DNA from: Limnobacter sp. MED105
GTDB taxonomy: Bacteria > Pseudomonadota > Gammaproteobacteria > Burkholderiales > Burkholderiaceae_B
Length of the DNA: 64,000 bases
Assembly: GCF_000170915.1 (NCBI RefSeq)
Contig: NZ_ABCT01000004.1
Location: 62,001 to 126,000, forward strand
Direction of reading: 5' to 3'
Shown here: positions 12,720 to 19,567 of the stretch, piece by piece
Layout: each line of letters starts with the position of its first letter
Position numbering within the stretch: the stretch's first letter is position 1
Program-made: the position numbers and the translations under genes
Notes under the pieces: model-generated
What the model saw: the letters and a program-made list of their open reading frames with translations, nothing else
The model's database searches: none
What the model was told of the DNA's origin: nothing

Positions 12720-12732
12720 TTTTTATTTTATT
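12701..12732 (+). terminator. Weak intrinsic terminator after the asparaginase gene
   Basis: CAGCC and GGCTG arms form a short five-pair stem across the last codons, followed by TAATTTTTATTTTATT. The stem is short, but the T-rich run and the convergent TolC gene support a terminator. Confidence 0.4.
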
Positions 12733-14746
12733 CAACCTGCGCTTGAGCAACATTCAGATTTTTTCTGGTCTGGGTTTGCGCCGTACTGACAGGCATGTTT
12801 TGTTCCCGAATAATTTGCCAAACACCTTTGTTTTCTTGCCAGGTCAAAACTTTTTTCGAGCGTTCCTGATACAACTTTGCGCGGTAGTCCTGAACAAAGC
12901 TGATTTCGTATTCATTGGGTTTGTCGAAGCTCGGTATCACTAGTAAGTCGGAAATCTCGATATCGATTCCCTGTGCTTTCGTAATGCGATCTCGGCGGTT
13001 ACTGACCCATGCTTCATAGCTGCCTTCTTCGGGTTTGAAGTTTGGCGCGTAAAACGCGATGTAACTGTTCAAGTCTTTGTTTTCCCAAGCCCTCGCCCAC
13101 GCTTTGGTCTTGTCGATCAGGCTTTTAGACACTTCTGCGGGGTCTCCAAATGCAGCCACCTGTTGGCTTGCAAGGTCACCGTTGTCCAATTGGGCCAATT
13201 GAATGGGCGGCAGGCTGTTGGTCGAATTCACTGACTTCAATGCCTCATCGAATCCAATGTTGGGCAAATCAAAGTCTTCCAGATTGATAAGGCGAGTGGG
13301 GCACCCTTCGGCCTCAGCGCCACTGTGGGTTTGTTCTTTGTAAAACAGAACATTGCGCTTGGTGGGTTCATCCACATTCACCAGTTCATCGACAGCAAAT
13401 AGCGTGATCAATTGGCCGGTGGCCGCCAGCAATTTCAATTTTGAAACACTTAAATCGGCTTCAATATTAATCAAAGCCCTTTGTGCCTGATAGTACTCAT
13501 TCTCTGCACTCAGCAAATCGAGCAGGCTGCGTCGCCCCACTGCAAATTGCTGTTCATAGGCTGCGCGCGCCTTGGAAATTGCAGCCGCCTGTTCACGAAA
13601 GTAATTCAGCTTTTTTTGAGAACTGACCACATCAAAAAGCGAGGTTTGTGTGGACTGTCGAATGGCCCTGCAAATCACCAGTTTGTCGTCCAGACTGCGC
13701 AGTCGACGTTTGATTGCCGCATTACGGGAGGCATTGTCGGCTCCACCACGGTACAGGTTAATCGTAGCCAGCAAGTCGATCGACGAAATTTGGCGCTCGT
13801 CAAATGTGGACAGGTAGTTGCTGTACACATCGGTTTTTGCGCGTAAATCAAGGCGGGGGTGAAAGCCTTCGCTGGCCGCAGTTACTGCCTGTTTGGCGGT
13901 AGCAATGGATGCATTGGATGCCTTCAGTAGCGGGTGGTTGTTCAGGGCGAATACCAAACGTTCGCGGTTTTCAACCTCAAAGTTGGCATTGACTACGTAT
14001 TCACCTGCCTGATTGACTGGCCAAACTGTGTCGGTAATTCGTTGATAGTTGGCCATCGCGGAAAAAGTGTTGGCTTTCTCGGTGGCCAGGTTACCCAAAG
14101 CCAAAGTGTACCGGCTGCGCGCCTGTTCCAGATCGGATTGACGCGTTACACCGCTTTTTACCTTTTCCTCAATGCGGTTCATCAGTTCTTGGTGATACTT
14201 CAGATTGTCCTCGGACAAACGAGTCAGGGCCTGAAAACGTGACACATCAACATGTGCACTGGAGGCATCAAAAGCGACCTGATTGGCCTTGTTCAGATAT
14301 CGGTAATAGCTTTGCATCGCCTCGGAGTAGGCTGCAAGGTAGCGGGCCTGAGAGGCAAAACCGTTGTACAGGTTTTGGCGCGCCTCAATGCCATAGGAGT
14401 TTGCGTTGTAGGTACGCGTGTCAGCGTCTTCGATCCGGGTTCGTTCGCGACCTGCAGAGCCCCGTGCATCAACCGTGGGCAACAAAGTGCCAAACACCAC
14501 GTTGGCCTCTTCCATTTGCGCTTCGAGCGCATGTACATCTGCGTCCAGTGCAGGGCTGTTTTGCAGGCCTTTGATCACGCTTTGTTGCAATGGGTTCGGC
14601 GCATTGTTTTCTGTGGGCTGCTCTGCGAGTATCGCCTGGTTTTCCTGTGTCCAGGCCGAAGGCGGGGCCAGGGTAAGAAGGGCGATGATCAATGAAGTGG
14701 ATAAGTTGTAGCTTGTGTTCATATTGGCTCGTTCGTTAAATTGCAT
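12728..14746 (-). CDS. TolC-family outer membrane channel with C-terminal Cds6-type NTF2-like domain
   Basis: This outer membrane component of the type I secretion operon has about 672 residues, well above the 430-480 of usual TolC proteins. A signal peptide is visible in the segment after MNTSYNLS (ending near PPSAWTQ). TolC-like coiled helices fill roughly residues 50-465. A variable linker follows, and from about residue 545 to 650 there is a domain with KAWARAWENKDLNSYIAFY, APNFKP and NRRDRI. That pattern is characteristic of the NTF2-like domain known from L,D-transpeptidase Cds6. The ATG at 14746 overlaps the upstream stop as TGATG; an ATG at 14722 is an alternative closer to the signal peptide. 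Confidence 0.85.
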   Translation of the reverse strand: MQFNERANMNTSYNLSTSLIIALLTLAPPSAWTQENQAILAEQPTENNAPNPLQQSVIKGLQNSPALDADVHALEAQMEEANVVFGTLLPTVDARGSAGRERTRIEDADTRTYNANSYGIEARQNLYNGFASQARYLAAYSEAMQSYYRYLNKANQVAFDASSAHVDVSRFQALTRLSEDNLKYHQELMNRIEEKVKSGVTRQSDLEQARSRYTLALGNLATEKANTFSAMANYQRITDTVWPVNQAGEYVVNANFEVENRERLVFALNNHPLLKASNASIATAKQAVTAASEGFHPRLDLRAKTDVYSNYLSTFDERQISSIDLLATINLYRGGADNASRNAAIKRRLRSLDDKLVICRAIRQSTQTSLFDVVSSQKKLNYFREQAAAISKARAAYEQQFAVGRRSLLDLLSAENEYYQAQRALINIEADLSVSKLKLLAATGQLITLFAVDELVNVDEPTKRNVLFYKEQTHSGAEAEGCPTRLINLEDFDLPNIGFDEALKSVNSTNSLPPIQLAQLDNGDLASQQVAAFGDPAEVSKSLIDKTKAWARAWENKDLNSYIAFYAPNFKPEEGSYEAWVSNRRDRITKAQGIDIEISDLLVIPSFDKPNEYEISFVQDYRAKLYQERSKKVLTWQENKGVWQIIREQNMPVSTAQTQTRKNLNVAQAQVE

Positions 14747-15900
14747 CAACAGACAGCAGCAGCTTCTTCAGCAGGTGCGCAGTTCGCAGAGTCAAAAGCA
14801 CTGGCGCTGAATCCTGAGGCCCAAGCTGTTTTACTTTGGATGTATTCGTTGGCCTGGTCGCGGGCTTGATCCAGATAGGTTTGTACATTTTCCTGAACGG
14901 CTTCAATTACAGAATCGACCGTGTATTGTTCAGAGGAATATTCGTGGTCGCCCATCTGCGTATTGCCCGTGTAGTCGCTGCTGTCGGTGTTGTCAGCGCA
15001 ATCGGTGTTGTCAGCAGGGTAATCGTTGTCGTTCACGGCTACGTCAATGGCGTCGACCTTCATGTACACATGGGCAGTGTCGGTCAGGCAACTGTCATCG
15101 CCGATGGTGTAGCTAATAACATCCTCTCCGCAAAAACCTTCATTGGGTGTGTAGTGCAACTTGCCATCCTTGATTTCCACTGTCCCGTTTTCGGCGCTTG
15201 CTTCGTTGATTCTTAAATCACCGCAGCCTAGGTCGTTTTTTAGAACGTCGACGATCACTGGGCAATCTGCCTTTGTGCTGGCGCAGTCATTGACCGCGTC
15301 AACCTCTGGGCAGTCCGGATCAGTTTTGCAATCTGGTTCGTCCACAGGCGGACAGGTGGGCGGTGTGGGGCACTCGCAGTCTTCTTCTTCGTCCACCGGC
15401 GGATCAACCGGTGGTGGTTCTTCATTTTCATCCACTGGCGTTGGGGGTGGCATGTCTTTACATTCCACACTCGCAGGGCCTTCTTTCTCAACCACTCGAA
15501 CTGTGTTGGTACCATTTTCGCCAACCTTGCTATCCATGCTGGGCAGTGGGTCTTGGTTAACCCGCTCCACCACATAGCCCTCGCTTAGTTTTGGAAGGTC
15601 TTCGGGCACATCGTTGTCTTGTGCGCCGACAGTGATGTATTTGCGGATCACATCTTTTTCAGGAGGGGTAGCAGCGTCGAATGGAACAATTTCACCGGTC
15701 TTTGGCTTGATCAGCCATTCCGTAGGTCCCTCCAGAGGGCGAACCATTTCAGGCGCGGTAATTTGTCCGTCTGTATAAGGACCTAGTTGAACAACCACCT
15801 CTGTTTGCGGTTTCCGCTTCAGGGCTGGGCGAGGTTTTCTGGCCAAGCCAAGGGTACTGGGATCGCATTCTTGGGCATTCACAACTGGCTTTTCGCTCAT
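14746..15900 (-). CDS. Cysteine-rich cadherin/Ig-like protein, presumed type I secretion substrate
   Basis: This 384-residue acidic protein has no Sec or Tat signal. It begins at ATG 15900 (MSEKPVVNAQ), preceded by GAGGA. Residues 30-140 are of unknown fold. Residues 148-200 are a Pro/Glu/Asp/Cys-rich linker. Residues about 200-285 match the bacterial cadherin-like/Big_9 repeat typical of type I-secreted adhesins (NGTVEIKDGKLHYTPNEGF, then DVISYTIGDDS). An Asn/Asp-rich segment (290-320), a predicted amphipathic helix (328-358) and an Ala-rich tail ending in Cys complete it. Fifteen cysteines are present, five in the Ig-like domain. There are no RTX nonapeptides. Its position between hlyD and tolC genes, with TGATG coupling to tolC, makes it the likely cargo or an exporter-associated surface protein. 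Function unknown. Confidence 0.75.
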   Translation of the reverse strand: MSEKPVVNAQECDPSTLGLARKPRPALKRKPQTEVVVQLGPYTDGQITAPEMVRPLEGPTEWLIKPKTGEIVPFDAATPPEKDVIRKYITVGAQDNDVPEDLPKLSEGYVVERVNQDPLPSMDSKVGENGTNTVRVVEKEGPASVECKDMPPPTPVDENEEPPPVDPPVDEEEDCECPTPPTCPPVDEPDCKTDPDCPEVDAVNDCASTKADCPVIVDVLKNDLGCGDLRINEASAENGTVEIKDGKLHYTPNEGFCGEDVISYTIGDDSCLTDTAHVYMKVDAIDVAVNDNDYPADNTDCADNTDSSDYTGNTQMGDHEYSSEQYTVDSVIEAVQENVQTYLDQARDQANEYIQSKTAWASGFSASAFDSANCAPAEEAAAVC

Positions 15901-16039
15901 GGGGGTCCTCGGGTTCGATGTCATTGATAAGTGATCGAGCCGCGAGTTTGGTTCCAAATCACCCGCGTGCCAAACAGGTGATTGGGTCAGGATTAACGGG
16001 AGTTAACTCTATCGAGTTATTGGAATGATTCGGTTGGGT
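15901..16039 (-). promoter_or_regulatory. Structured gap between adaptor and presumed cargo gene
   Basis: The 139 bases contain AATCACC (15957-15963) pairing with GGTGATT (15977-15983), and TAACTC-tatc-GAGTTA (16004-16019). The latter overlaps an alternative TTAAC/GTTAA dyad at 15993-16006. No T-run follows, so these look like leader or processing hairpins rather than a strong terminator. The cargo gene may have its own promoter here. The SD (GAGGA) is at the 15901-side end. Confidence 0.4.
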
Positions 16040-17398
16040 TTACTGCTCGGTAAAAGCCTGGATTGAACCGCGTATAACTGGTTTTGTGAGGTAGGACAAC
16101 ACGGTTCGATCTTCAGTTTCAATGCTCACATTGGCCACCATGCCAGGCATCAGTCGAATTTTCTCATTCACATTCAGGCGTGGTACTTTCACTTTCACAC
16201 TAAAGTAGGGTCGACCGAACTCGTCAAGTAAACTGTCTGCGGAGATACTTTCCACAGTTCCTTCCAATCCGCCGTATATGGAATAGTCATAGGCAGTCAC
16301 ACGAATGTTGGCGATTTGTTTGGGTCGAATAAACGCAATGTCTTTTGGGTTGATTCGGGTCTCGAAAACCAGTTGCTCATCAATTGGCACAATTTCGATC
16401 ACCTCTTTTCCTGCGGGGACAACAGCGCCTCGGGTGTTGTACAAAACTCGTTGCACAAGACCGTCCACCGGGGTTTTTAATGTGGCTTGATTCACTCTGT
16501 CCGTGAGCTCGATCTGGTTCTGCTCAAGACTGGCCAACCTCGCCTTGACTTCCGAGAGTTCGGTGCGCGCTTCATTAATCTGCTTTAGGCGAGTTTCCTC
16601 AATTTTTTCGCGAGCCTCGCGAATGGCAGAGTACAAGCGACTGGTTTGCGCCTTGGCTCCTTCATAATCGCCTTTTGCTTTGGCGACGTCGCGTTCAAGT
16701 CGCAGTACTTCAACCGGGGAAACTGCACCGCTTTTTAGCAGTGGCCGCATACTGCTCAACTCTTGTTCGGATATTTCCAGGTTTCGTTTGGCAGCGGTGG
16801 CGTTGCTTTGTGCCTCATCGAGTTCGCGTTGCCGTTGGTCAAGCTGTTGTTCATAAATTTGCGTTTGTGAAGCCCATTCCTGAAGTTTGGTTTGTAGCAG
16901 TTTGGATTCCTGCAGGTACAGATCGGGGTATTGCTGAATTAGCGAGGCAGGTATGTTCGGCGTGGTGTTGTTAAGTTGGGCCATCAGCCGGGCTTCACGA
17001 AATTGAAAAGACGCATCAACCGCTTCCTTTTCCTTCAGGCTTGATGAAAACCGGGTGATGTCGATTTGAACCAGCTTGTCGCCAGCCTTGACCAATTGGC
17101 CCTCGCGCACAAACACCTGGTTGATAACTCCGCCATCCACAGCCTGAATCACCTGCAAGCGCTGGGAGGGTACAACACGCGCCTCGCCGTGAGCTGCTTG
17201 GGGTACTGTTGCAATTGCAGACCATGCCAACAAGGCCAACAAGGTAAGGGCACAGCCATGTACCAGGCGTTTTGTGAGCACTTGTTGTTCATGCCAAAGC
17301 CTTGACTGCTCAAGCCCCGCTGTTGCCGGCATGTGGTGTTCGCCATTTTTCCCAAGAAGCCAGTTTATGAATCGTATGGTGTGGCGCTGAGTTTTCAT
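16040..17398 (-). CDS. Type I secretion membrane fusion protein (HlyD family)
   Basis: This 452-residue periplasmic adaptor links the inner membrane ABC exporter with the TolC channel. It has one N-terminal membrane helix (about residues 46-65), then a lipoyl half-motif (DGGVINQVFVREGQLVKAGD), a long coiled-coil hairpin (about 130-290), the second lipoyl half (LKTPVDGLVQRV), and a beta-barrel C-terminal domain (GMVANVSIETEDRTVLSYL). This is the HlyD/LapC pattern. Its ATG overlaps the exporter stop by four bases (ATGA), showing translational coupling. Confidence 0.92.
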   Translation of the reverse strand: MKTQRHTIRFINWLLGKNGEHHMPATAGLEQSRLWHEQQVLTKRLVHGCALTLLALLAWSAIATVPQAAHGEARVVPSQRLQVIQAVDGGVINQVFVREGQLVKAGDKLVQIDITRFSSSLKEKEAVDASFQFREARLMAQLNNTTPNIPASLIQQYPDLYLQESKLLQTKLQEWASQTQIYEQQLDQRQRELDEAQSNATAAKRNLEISEQELSSMRPLLKSGAVSPVEVLRLERDVAKAKGDYEGAKAQTSRLYSAIREAREKIEETRLKQINEARTELSEVKARLASLEQNQIELTDRVNQATLKTPVDGLVQRVLYNTRGAVVPAGKEVIEIVPIDEQLVFETRINPKDIAFIRPKQIANIRVTAYDYSIYGGLEGTVESISADSLLDEFGRPYFSVKVKVPRLNVNEKIRLMPGMVANVSIETEDRTVLSYLTKPVIRGSIQAFTEQ

Positions 17399-19518
17399 GG
17401 TTCAACCTGCGTTGTTTGCTTTCGTTGTGTGGCCAGAGCATTGGCCGCATGCAGTACTTCAGGTTTGTTGCCTTGTGCGTGAATTTGCCCGTTGTGCATC
17501 AGGGCAAGGCGACTCGCACAAGCCAACAACCCAAGCTTGTGGGTGGTAAACACCAACATGCTTCGTTCGGGTAGTTGTTGCAGGTGCTGCAACAAGCGGT
17601 TTTCCATATGCTGGTCCAGGCAAACAGTGGGTTCATCCAGCAGTATCAGTTGTGGTTGGCCTGCCAGCGCTCTGCAAAGCGAAACTGCCTGTTTTTGTCC
17701 CGACGACAAGTTGTTACCCTGGCTGTCTATAGCCATGTGAATACCGTCTGGGTGCTGGTCTACCCAGTCTTTCAAGCCAAGTTGTTGGAGAATTTCCCAG
17801 CAATCGCTTGAGTTGATGTGCGGGCGCATGAAGCGAATATTGTCGAGCAAACTACCCTTGAGTAACACAGGGGGTTGACTGGCGTAACCCACTTTGGATT
17901 GAAATTCACTGTTTTGATAATGTTCGATCGACAATTTGTTGACCACAAGTTGACCCTGATCGCATTTAAGTTGTTGGGCAAGCAGTTTGAGTAGGGACGT
18001 TTTTCCAGACCCTGTGGTGCCGATAACAGCTAGCCTGCCACCGGCATGCAATTGAAGGTTCACATTGCGCAGCAAGAAATCAAATGGTTGATTGGCTTCT
18101 TTGTTGCGCCCCGGTTTAATTACGCTGGCGAATTCAAGCGACATGTTGTTGATTCGTTCAAGCGCTGAACGTTGAACCGTGGTTGGGGTTTGTTGCCCCA
18201 AGAACTGGTCAAGTTCTTCGAAACTGGCTTGGGCTGAATGTGTTTGTACTAGATGAGCCTGTAGTTTTTGAATTGGTGCGAAACAGCGCATGGTGAGCAT
18301 GGACACTGCGATCAATCCACCCACGGTTAGTTGCTTTTCAACAATGAAATAAACGCCTAGCGTGATAGTAAGTACCCAACTACTTTGTTGTAACAGATGT
18401 ATTCGTTGATTCACTACAAACATTTGATCGCGAACTGCGTTGCCGCTTAATCGCGATTTAAGCTGAAGCTTGTTCAATAATTTGCCATGGGCTTGCTCAA
18501 CGCCATGTGCCTGAATGCAGTCCAGGCCAGACAGTGAATCAAGCCATTGGCTTTGTGTTTCCCGACTTTGTCGCATTTGCGTTTGCCCAAGCCGTGAAAT
18601 TCTCCTGTGCGATGTTGCAATGAACAGCAAAGTTAGTCCGATAACCCCGCCTGCGATCAACAGAAACAGCGGGTGAATCAGGGCTATTACTGCCAAGAAA
18701 AGTACTAAAAACGGAAGGTCAATCAGTGCAAGAAGAAATACACCAGTGACCAATTCACGCAGTTGCTCGAATGAACGCAAATGCTGTAGAAGCAGGCTTG
18801 GTTCAGTTTTGTAGACGGGTACATTCAAAAGTGATTTCGACAGATGCATCGTGCATCGGGTGTCGATCGAAGTTGCGGCAACCTCCATCAGGCGATGGCG
18901 CGCATGTTTCAAGGCATGTTCAAAACCCAGGCAAAGAAATACACCCAGTAGCAATGCAATCATTGAGGCATAGGCTTGGTTGGGAATGATGCGGTCATAC
19001 ACCTGAAGCGAGAAGAGTGGGCCCGCCAGTGCCAACAGATTGATCAGCAGGGAGGCATAAATCACCGGCTTAAAGCTTCCATTTTCGAAATCAAATGCTT
19101 CTCGTAACCACTTGCTGTCGCGAAGCTGTTGCCAAAAGTCAAGCAGGCCTGCCGGTGCTTGTTCATTTCCTTGAACTGTTTTTGGCGCTTCAATTTGCAA
19201 GGCCCATTTCAATGAAACCGGCGTGGCATTCGATGAAGTCAGTTCTTGAAGTCGACCACACTCACCGTTGTGCAGCGTGGCCAATGTGTGCAGGCCTAGG
19301 TGTTTGATTTCACTGACCGACACCTGATGAAAAAGCTGCCACGAAATATTGCAGGCGGATAGATAAGCCAACAATTGATTTAGATCGATGTCGTGTTCCG
19401 AGTCAGCCAGATCGGTTTGTAATTCCCATTGGCTGGGCAGAAATTCCAGTCCCATTTCCTCAAGCAGGCTGCACAAAGCGCGTTGCAATGGTTTGATGGG
19501 GCGCGGGTCTTGGAGCAT
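17395..19518 (-). CDS. Type I secretion ABC exporter (permease-ATPase fusion)
   Basis: This 707-residue half-transporter has an N-terminal C39-peptidase-like region without a recognisable catalytic Cys/His pair, so it probably only binds cargo, as in RTX/LapB-type exporters. Six membrane helices span about residues 155-440. The nucleotide-binding domain shows Walker A GTTGSGKTS, signature LSSGQKQ (variant of LSGGQ), Walker B LILLDEPT and an H-loop histidine in FTTHK. The ATG at 19518 is preferred over an in-frame TTG at 19530, which falls within a long hairpin. It is first in the secretion operon and lies 100 bases downstream of moeA. Confidence 0.92.
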   Translation of the reverse strand: MLQDPRPIKPLQRALCSLLEEMGLEFLPSQWELQTDLADSEHDIDLNQLLAYLSACNISWQLFHQVSVSEIKHLGLHTLATLHNGECGRLQELTSSNATPVSLKWALQIEAPKTVQGNEQAPAGLLDFWQQLRDSKWLREAFDFENGSFKPVIYASLLINLLALAGPLFSLQVYDRIIPNQAYASMIALLLGVFLCLGFEHALKHARHRLMEVAATSIDTRCTMHLSKSLLNVPVYKTEPSLLLQHLRSFEQLRELVTGVFLLALIDLPFLVLFLAVIALIHPLFLLIAGGVIGLTLLFIATSHRRISRLGQTQMRQSRETQSQWLDSLSGLDCIQAHGVEQAHGKLLNKLQLKSRLSGNAVRDQMFVVNQRIHLLQQSSWVLTITLGVYFIVEKQLTVGGLIAVSMLTMRCFAPIQKLQAHLVQTHSAQASFEELDQFLGQQTPTTVQRSALERINNMSLEFASVIKPGRNKEANQPFDFLLRNVNLQLHAGGRLAVIGTTGSGKTSLLKLLAQQLKCDQGQLVVNKLSIEHYQNSEFQSKVGYASQPPVLLKGSLLDNIRFMRPHINSSDCWEILQQLGLKDWVDQHPDGIHMAIDSQGNNLSSGQKQAVSLCRALAGQPQLILLDEPTVCLDQHMENRLLQHLQQLPERSMLVFTTHKLGLLACASRLALMHNGQIHAQGNKPEVLHAANALATQRKQTTQVEP

Positions 19519-19524
19519 GTCACA

Positions 19525-19567
19525 GGCCAAAATTCAAGAGCGCTCATGGTAGCGCTTGAATCTGGCC
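19525..19567 (-). repeat. Long imperfect inverted repeat before the exporter gene
   Basis: The arms run GGCCAAAATTCAAG-a-GCGCT on one side and AGCGC-TTGAATCTGGCC on the other, around the loop CATGGT. The only interruptions are a bulged base and one or two mismatches. It lies between moeA and the type I secretion operon, and its 3' arm (minus strand) ends seven bases before the exporter ATG. It could terminate the Moco operon (only four T follow the inner stem), mask the exporter start, or bind a regulator. Confidence 0.55.

Follow-up and report, generated by a model that had tools for sequence, protein, structure and literature searches.

The closest described relatives of the system considered here are the Lap systems, that is LapA and LapBCE of Pseudomonas fluorescens together with their beta- and gammaproteobacterial kin. 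One account (PMC13090378; all papers cited here are drawn on in excerpt) gives their plan as an N-terminal beta retention domain, a helix and cleavage site, a structureless segment spanning the conduit, and beta domains outside the cell. We describe a type I secretion operon of Limnobacter sp. MED105, on the minus strand at positions 12728-19518 of the 64,000-nucleotide stretch that was analysed (the window), which encodes an ATP-binding cassette (ABC) exporter, an HlyD adaptor, a 384-residue protein and a TolC channel. The locus resembles the Lap systems in the kinship of its exporter, in the Cds6_C tail of its TolC, and in having a beta module, an unstructured segment and an outer beta domain in the same order as in the excerpted plan (PMC13090378). 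It differs in that its presumed cargo has neither the targeting helix nor the cleavage site (the LapG motif [T/A/P]AAG, as given in the excerpt of PMC13090378, does not occur in any of the 18 ortholog pieces), measures 384 residues rather than thousands, and lacks RTX repeats, a T1SS_VCA0849-type C-terminus and a match to retention_LapA, in a genome that itself lacks LapG. The Limnobacter cargo is also Cys-rich, whereas the complete Lap-type adhesin frames that we saw (2,259 residues in locus L146 and 1,495 in L148) have no cysteine. Our preferred, though tentative, reading is that this is a dedicated Lap-type system whose cargo is the small protein, held in the TolC of the same operon by a retention domain unrelated to that of LapA.

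HasA, PlyA and PlyB are freely secreted enzymes or haemophores. They too are type I substrates without RTX repeats (PMC3034196, in excerpt), so a non-RTX cargo is not in itself new, but they are not known to have an N-terminal module and linker of the Limnobacter kind. BapP of Pseudoalteromonas tunicata shares Big_9 repeats, presumed type I export and, as far as the excerpt goes, the absence of a LapA-type retention module (PMC12153261), but it has many Ig-like repeats, an N-terminal beta-propeller and another exporter arrangement. In CdrA/CdrB an end of the adhesin is held in its own outer-membrane pore by a cysteine hook (excerpt of PMC7616799); that system uses two-partner secretion and a C-terminal anchor, whereas the Limnobacter system is of type I with an N-terminal module. 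Exporters with an inactive C39 domain have been linked with large RTX cargos (PMC8277102, in excerpt); in the Limnobacter ABC exporter, Pfam gave no C39 peptidase match at an expectation value (E) of 1 or below. We found no small Cys-rich cargo with its own N-terminal domain on a Lap-type exporter in the open-licence literature, and no paper there on Limnobacter and type I secretion.

The small gene is present in 16 of 16 Limnobacter genomes and is a single copy in the MED105 genome (G000; 3.39 Mb in 46 contigs, 95.93% complete). The gene order moaA-fdhD-mobA-moeA-ABC-hlyD-small-tolC-asparaginase-rmuC lies on a single contig in 12 of the 16 genomes; contig ends interrupt the ten-gene block in G002, G003, G010 and G013 (in G013 the ABC gene falls past the contig end), and the remaining genes follow the same order. 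As the small gene keeps its place across the genus and strong purifying selection acts on its N-terminal half, we judge the arrangement to be more than chance. These results agree with much of an earlier reading of the stretch made from the letters alone (the sequence-only reading): all four of its genes are real, on the minus strand, and its ABC, HlyD and TolC calls match those of Pfam and NCBIfam. It had also named homologues regularly found away from secretion genes as contrary evidence; for the whole protein none was found, the gene being at this locus in all 16 genus genomes. The protein was found in 15 of 15 other Limnobacter genomes and in none of 20 genomes from other genera of the family (60 relatives searched); 5 of 24 order-level genomes gave a match, to the Big_9 part only, in open frames of 905 to 6,789 residues.

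The window copy has the length, the single Big_9 domain and the 15 cysteines first read from it, and a pattern search likewise found no RTX nonapeptide. Big_9 scores 46.9 bits (cut-off 23.6), and the tandem-95 model NF012211 reaches only 35 bits (cut-off 90). With boundaries set by us, and with G002 and G003 excluded (the gene is split over contigs), the parts measured in 14 orthologs are an N-terminal region of 131-150 residues, a linker of 48-157 (the 13 orthologs with Big_9), a Big_9 domain of 80-81 (13 of 14) and a tail of 96-129. The ortholog without Big_9, that of G010, has a disrupted gene start and lies on a contig of 3,952 bases with a coverage of 2.2; since even one of the 14, albeit on this low-coverage contig, does without the domain, Big_9 is probably not the defining part of the protein. 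In G002, the most divergent genome, a frame with the N-terminal module meets a stop about 217 residues in, close to the end of its contig (L055 12278-12878), and a Big_9-bearing frame opens another contig (start of L056); these may be one gene or two.

Inspection by eye and a hydropathy scan found no signal peptide or transmembrane stretch in the protein. The C-termini of all measured orthologs consist of acidic and then small residues (for example EEAAAVC, EDVAVVA and EEMHAA). Some type I signals close with an acidic residue and then hydrophobic residues, a resemblance that we use as a lead only. Cysteines number from 3, in the type genome of L. litoralis (G004), to 33 across the measured orthologs, most of which have a Cys-rich linker; Cys12 is the sole invariant cysteine of the 11-row alignment A2, with C191, C206 and C271 nearly invariant. 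The count of 15 is correct for this strain and is not a family trait, and because the number ranges from 3 to 33, the disulfide cross-linking that the sequence-only reading had offered as a role for the cargo is not supported as a general function and is weakened as an obligate one.

The N-terminal 105 residues are the slowest-evolving part. We compared the ratio of non-synonymous to synonymous substitution (dN/dS) in six pairs against the window copy, and for ABC, HlyD, TolC and MoeA in three genomes; because synonymous divergence is near saturation in places the ratios are rough, and the ranking of regions is the result, a caution that also counts against leaning on them for our proposal. 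Residues 31-105 gave dN/dS of 0.009-0.028 in the six pairs, and residues 1-30 showed no amino-acid change in five of them. Big_9 gave 0.035-0.049 (four computable pairs), and the tail was fastest at 0.155-0.363 (five computable pairs). All three exporter components lie above the N-terminal module (ABC 0.061-0.084, HlyD 0.039-0.047, TolC 0.036-0.046), and MoeA gave 0.036-0.062. By sequence, a slow N-terminal module and a fast tail fit a part that contacts the exporter and a part that faces outwards.

Within the databases searched the module is confined to Limnobacter. Its alignment (A1) found 14 loci in the GTDB contig collection, all from this genus (the scan relies on peptide patterns taken from the module, and very divergent kin would be missed), and its profile matched 2 of 399 genomes of the order, both Limnobacter. 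Pfam has no match for it at E<=10 in any of 15 members, and a fold search of the Protein Data Bank (PDB) with the module model gave nothing at E<=0.001; the module profile did not identify a solved structure either (best E 0.44, chance level). AlphaFold2 modelling of the whole protein (11 sequences; mean predicted local distance difference test score, pLDDT, 52.8) places strands in residues 32-91, a Big_9 sandwich and a helix at 328-361, and leaves the linker without structure. The N-terminal 114 residues modelled separately (15 sequences) form six strands, with a pLDDT of about 70-83 over the block, a mean of 64.5 and a predicted template modelling score of 0.44. A SPOR or GYF assignment, prompted by VVQLGPF as seen by eye, was dropped for want of a Pfam or PDB fold match, no SPOR profile comparison having been made; in the MED105 genome PF05036 (SPOR) matches six places at E<=1, none at the locus of the small gene. 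A fold search with the low-confidence whole-protein model returned six matches at E<=0.001, all collar proteins of Agrobacterium phages (Milano, 7-7-1), with E of 1.7e-5 to 1e-4 and a root-mean-square deviation of about 10 Å.

The exporter genes point to the Lap systems. Six of 369 genomes of the class, MED105 included, contain HlyD relatives at E<=1e-95; of the five others, four adjoin a retention_LapA protein and the fifth has LapG and a large adhesin next to it. An HlyD tree of 28 rows joins the Limnobacter clade (support 100/100) to the Lap rows at 94/96, a fork that is drawn open, with long branches flagged and with Lap rows that were chosen as best hits; identity to the Lap-type rows is 40-43%. 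Of 300 genomes of the order, 14 contain TolC relatives (E<=1e-60), and 12 of these lie outside the genus. The 13 surrounding regions outside Limnobacter hold a LapG gene in eight cases and a tandem-95 adhesin with a retention module in two; no Lap gene was seen in L112 and L113, with one open reading frame scanned in each, or in L118, with none scanned. Judged by these comparisons, the exporter is related to the Lap type and differs in its cargo, and to call it an undescribed system, as the sequence-only reading did, is too strong. Its view of a small partner protein on a dedicated exporter holds: the evidence supports a type I system dedicated to that protein, within a family in which the related systems handle giant adhesins. 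One Limnobacter genome, G003, carries a complete Lap operon (L160, contig G003:C36) with retention module, HlyD, ABC, TolC, LapG and a LapD-like gene besides the small-cargo operon, and the two are therefore separate systems.

We infer every step after translation (export, its direction, retention and surface location) from this anatomy. That the small protein is an exported cargo is, on sequence grounds, quite probable; that it is retained at the cell surface we put forward with less confidence, as a possibility we favour. The unfolded protein would pass C-terminus first through ABC, HlyD and TolC, so that Big_9 and the tail would emerge on the cell surface and the unstructured linker of 48-157 residues would occupy the TolC conduit. 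The N-terminal beta module would leave last and fold on the periplasmic side; unable to pass TolC, it would keep the protein in place as a surface tether. As a polyproline helix, the shortest linker, of 48 residues, would measure about 150 Å, near the length of a TolC tunnel. The outcome would be a miniature LapA, a short tether that has no RTX repeats, undergoes no LapG cleavage and relies on an unrelated domain for its retention. More speculatively still, a giant adhesin released by a protease may here have been exchanged for a miniature permanent tether, whose N-terminal domain evolved independently to stop in the TolC conduit and whose short Pro/Glu/Cys stalk is tuned to span it; no smaller retained surface protein of type I would then be known, and N-terminal retention would have been solved a second time by unrelated means.

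Several observations weigh against this proposal. The MED105 genome has no RTX protein (PF00353) and no LapG (PF06035), the latter being present in 3 of 16 genus genomes. The module is not recognisably that of LapA: retention_LapA (NF033682) is unmatched by the whole protein at E<=1 and by residues 1-114 at E<=0.1, and hhalign gives the module a probability of 0.1% against a LapA alignment of two rows. The module models are of modest confidence and differ in detail, one having four strands and a short helix and another six strands. Finally, aligned linker codons show dN of only 0.008-0.034 in five close pairs (0.617 in G001), more constraint than a mere spacer needs.

The same gene position, presumed C-terminal signal and Cys-rich linker (up to 33 Cys, and present in most orthologs) would suit a protein that is secreted by the operon's exporter and then fully released as a matrix or coat protein, its cysteines perhaps forming cross-links in the Cys-rich strains. 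Free non-RTX cargos of type I systems do exist (HasA, PlyA and PlyB, in the excerpt of PMC3034196), and we regard release as unlikely but worth serious consideration; a free protein has no obvious need for an N-terminal module slower than its exporter, and with only 3 Cys the L. litoralis type genome argues against cross-linking. The slowness of the first 105 residues, with the strict membership of the operon, could also reflect a non-exported, fixed partner of the exporter (for instance a plug, adaptor or regulator in the periplasm or cytoplasm), the true cargo then lying elsewhere; a fixed exporter partner is among the options of the sequence-only reading, and the module's rate fits it. We consider a non-exported partner rather improbable: the protein lacks a signal peptide, which leaves the exporter as its one route to the periplasm, Big_9 domains typically belong to secreted proteins, and the MED105 genome offers neither an RTX protein nor a second Big_9 protein above the cut-off.

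A substrate encoded elsewhere, with the small protein incidental, would find candidates in the RTX proteins (PF00353) of 8 of the 16 genus genomes and in further type I operons, at least one further or equal type I HlyD occurring in each of the 16 and two in MED105. The operon is nevertheless kept in the eight genomes without RTX matches, MED105 among them, and so persists where no RTX cargo is seen; the RTX-bearing genomes have additional HlyDs, and G003 also carries the complete Lap operon described above. The competing large adhesin of which the sequence-only reading had warned did not appear in the MED105 genome in a search for large adhesins and tandem arrays that used PF00353 and PF17963 only, with one sub-cut-off PF17963 place in a PKD-type protein; the genome may hold a large adhesin without RTX or Big_9. 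Altogether we see little chance that the exporter serves another substrate. That the small gene is the decayed or assembly-collapsed remnant of a giant adhesin, its single Big_9 the leftover of a collapsed tandem-95 array, is largely refuted by the similar lengths in the single-contig genomes G007 (409 residues) and G009 (489 residues), by purifying selection throughout and by the lack of a LapA module.

Were retention by the N-terminal module correct, it would be a second domain solving the problem that the LapA module solves, in a protein at least about tenfold smaller, so that conduit length, stalk length and stopper could be varied one by one. The small protein may be a surface tether in miniature, on which the anchoring of such proteins at the cell surface could be studied in simple form. 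Were it released instead, it would be an unusual type I cargo in being Cys-rich, since RTX lipases and S-layer proteins exported by type I systems are noted, in the excerpt of PMC3034196, for lacking cysteine. In both cases it is a candidate surface protein, conserved and encoded by a single-copy gene, in a common aquatic genus.

Table 1. Features of the Limnobacter operon, with positions in the window.
Feature	Position	Strand	Basis
ABC exporter (permease/ATPase), LssB-like	17395..19518	-	ABC_tran E 2.6e-28, ABC_membrane E 9.4e-12
HlyD-type periplasmic adaptor	16040..17398	-	TIGR01843 345.9 bits (cut-off 208.65); groups with Lap-type HlyDs
Conserved non-coding stretch between hlyD and the small gene, 139 bases	15901..16039	-	AACTC-N4-GAGTTAACTC dyad, GGAACCAAACTC block
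384-residue three-part protein, presumed cargo	14746..15900	-	Frame, genus conservation, position between hlyD and tolC
N-terminal beta module, residues 31-105, proposed retention domain, found only in the genus	15586..15810	-	dN/dS, predicted strands
Pro/acidic/Cys linker, residues 151-201	15298..15450	-	Boundaries set by us; pLDDT mostly <50
Single Big_9 / tandem-95-like domain, residues 202-282	15055..15297	-	PF17963 E 5.3e-12
Fast-evolving tail, residues 283-384, predicted helix 328-361, acidic/small-hydrophobic end, presumed C-terminal export signal	14749..15054	-	
TolC-type outer-membrane channel	12728..14722 (frame opens at 14749; start near 14722 chosen)	-	OEP E 1.6e-43
Cds6_C NTF2-like domain, C-terminus of TolC	12800..13120	-	PF24125 E 1.7e-18; absent from the sequence-only reading

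The ABC frame runs from 17395 to 19530 with an ATG at 19518, the start taken in the sequence-only reading, and its Walker A (GTTGSGKTS), signature (LSSGQ) and Walker B (LILLDEPT) motifs are all intact. Its ABC_tran and ABC_membrane matches both exceed the Pfam cut-offs. It matches the LssB model TIGR03375 from residue 130 onward with 457.6 bits, below the cut-off of 693.1. TolC falls just under the cut-off of the type I model TIGR01844 (218.5 against 225.15 bits) and lies above that of OEP; the Cds6_C tail is also found on both Lap-type TolC relatives scanned (L114 and L119). The TGATG coupling to tolC noted in the sequence-only reading is present at 14748-14744, with the same join in 10 of 16 genomes, but the conserved AACGAG..ATGAAC just downstream, judged by eye, suggests that tolC starts near 14722 and not at that join. 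A genus-specific disulfide between cargo and TolC was considered and rejected: both TolC cysteines are shared by all 15 genus rows and by all 13 TolC relatives from other genera, and are therefore a family trait.

The non-coding stretch between hlyD and the small gene is 71-89% identical to the window in nine relatives of the genus, and the stretch before the ABC gene is equally conserved (72-86%). The sequence GGAACCAAACTCNCG, which is the GGAACCAAACTC block with NCG, occurs once in each of 11 of the 16 genomes, in every case immediately before the small gene and nowhere else; an exact match is lacking in the other five. The small gene may have a promoter or operator of its own here, as would suit a cargo made in excess of its exporter, though the stretch before the ABC gene is, as noted, conserved to the same degree. 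A structured RNA leader was rejected (both sides change in 3 of 29 pairs, with an unfavourable covariation term, and Rfam has no match), as was a sigma-70-type promoter (two found, both on the opposite strand, against 5.3 in shuffles).

A second type I operon (ABC, HlyD and TolC) lies elsewhere in the MED105 genome (contig G000:C44, locus L126 5687-13123) and is seen also at L127, L128, L129 and L131. Downstream of it are two proteins, of about 473-509 and 273-303 residues, in the same arrangement in 5 of 5 genus genomes checked; in the pair that was scanned neither has an NCBIfam match and one has a sub-cut-off Pfam match. In some genomes a sigma/anti-sigma-like pair lies upstream of this operon.

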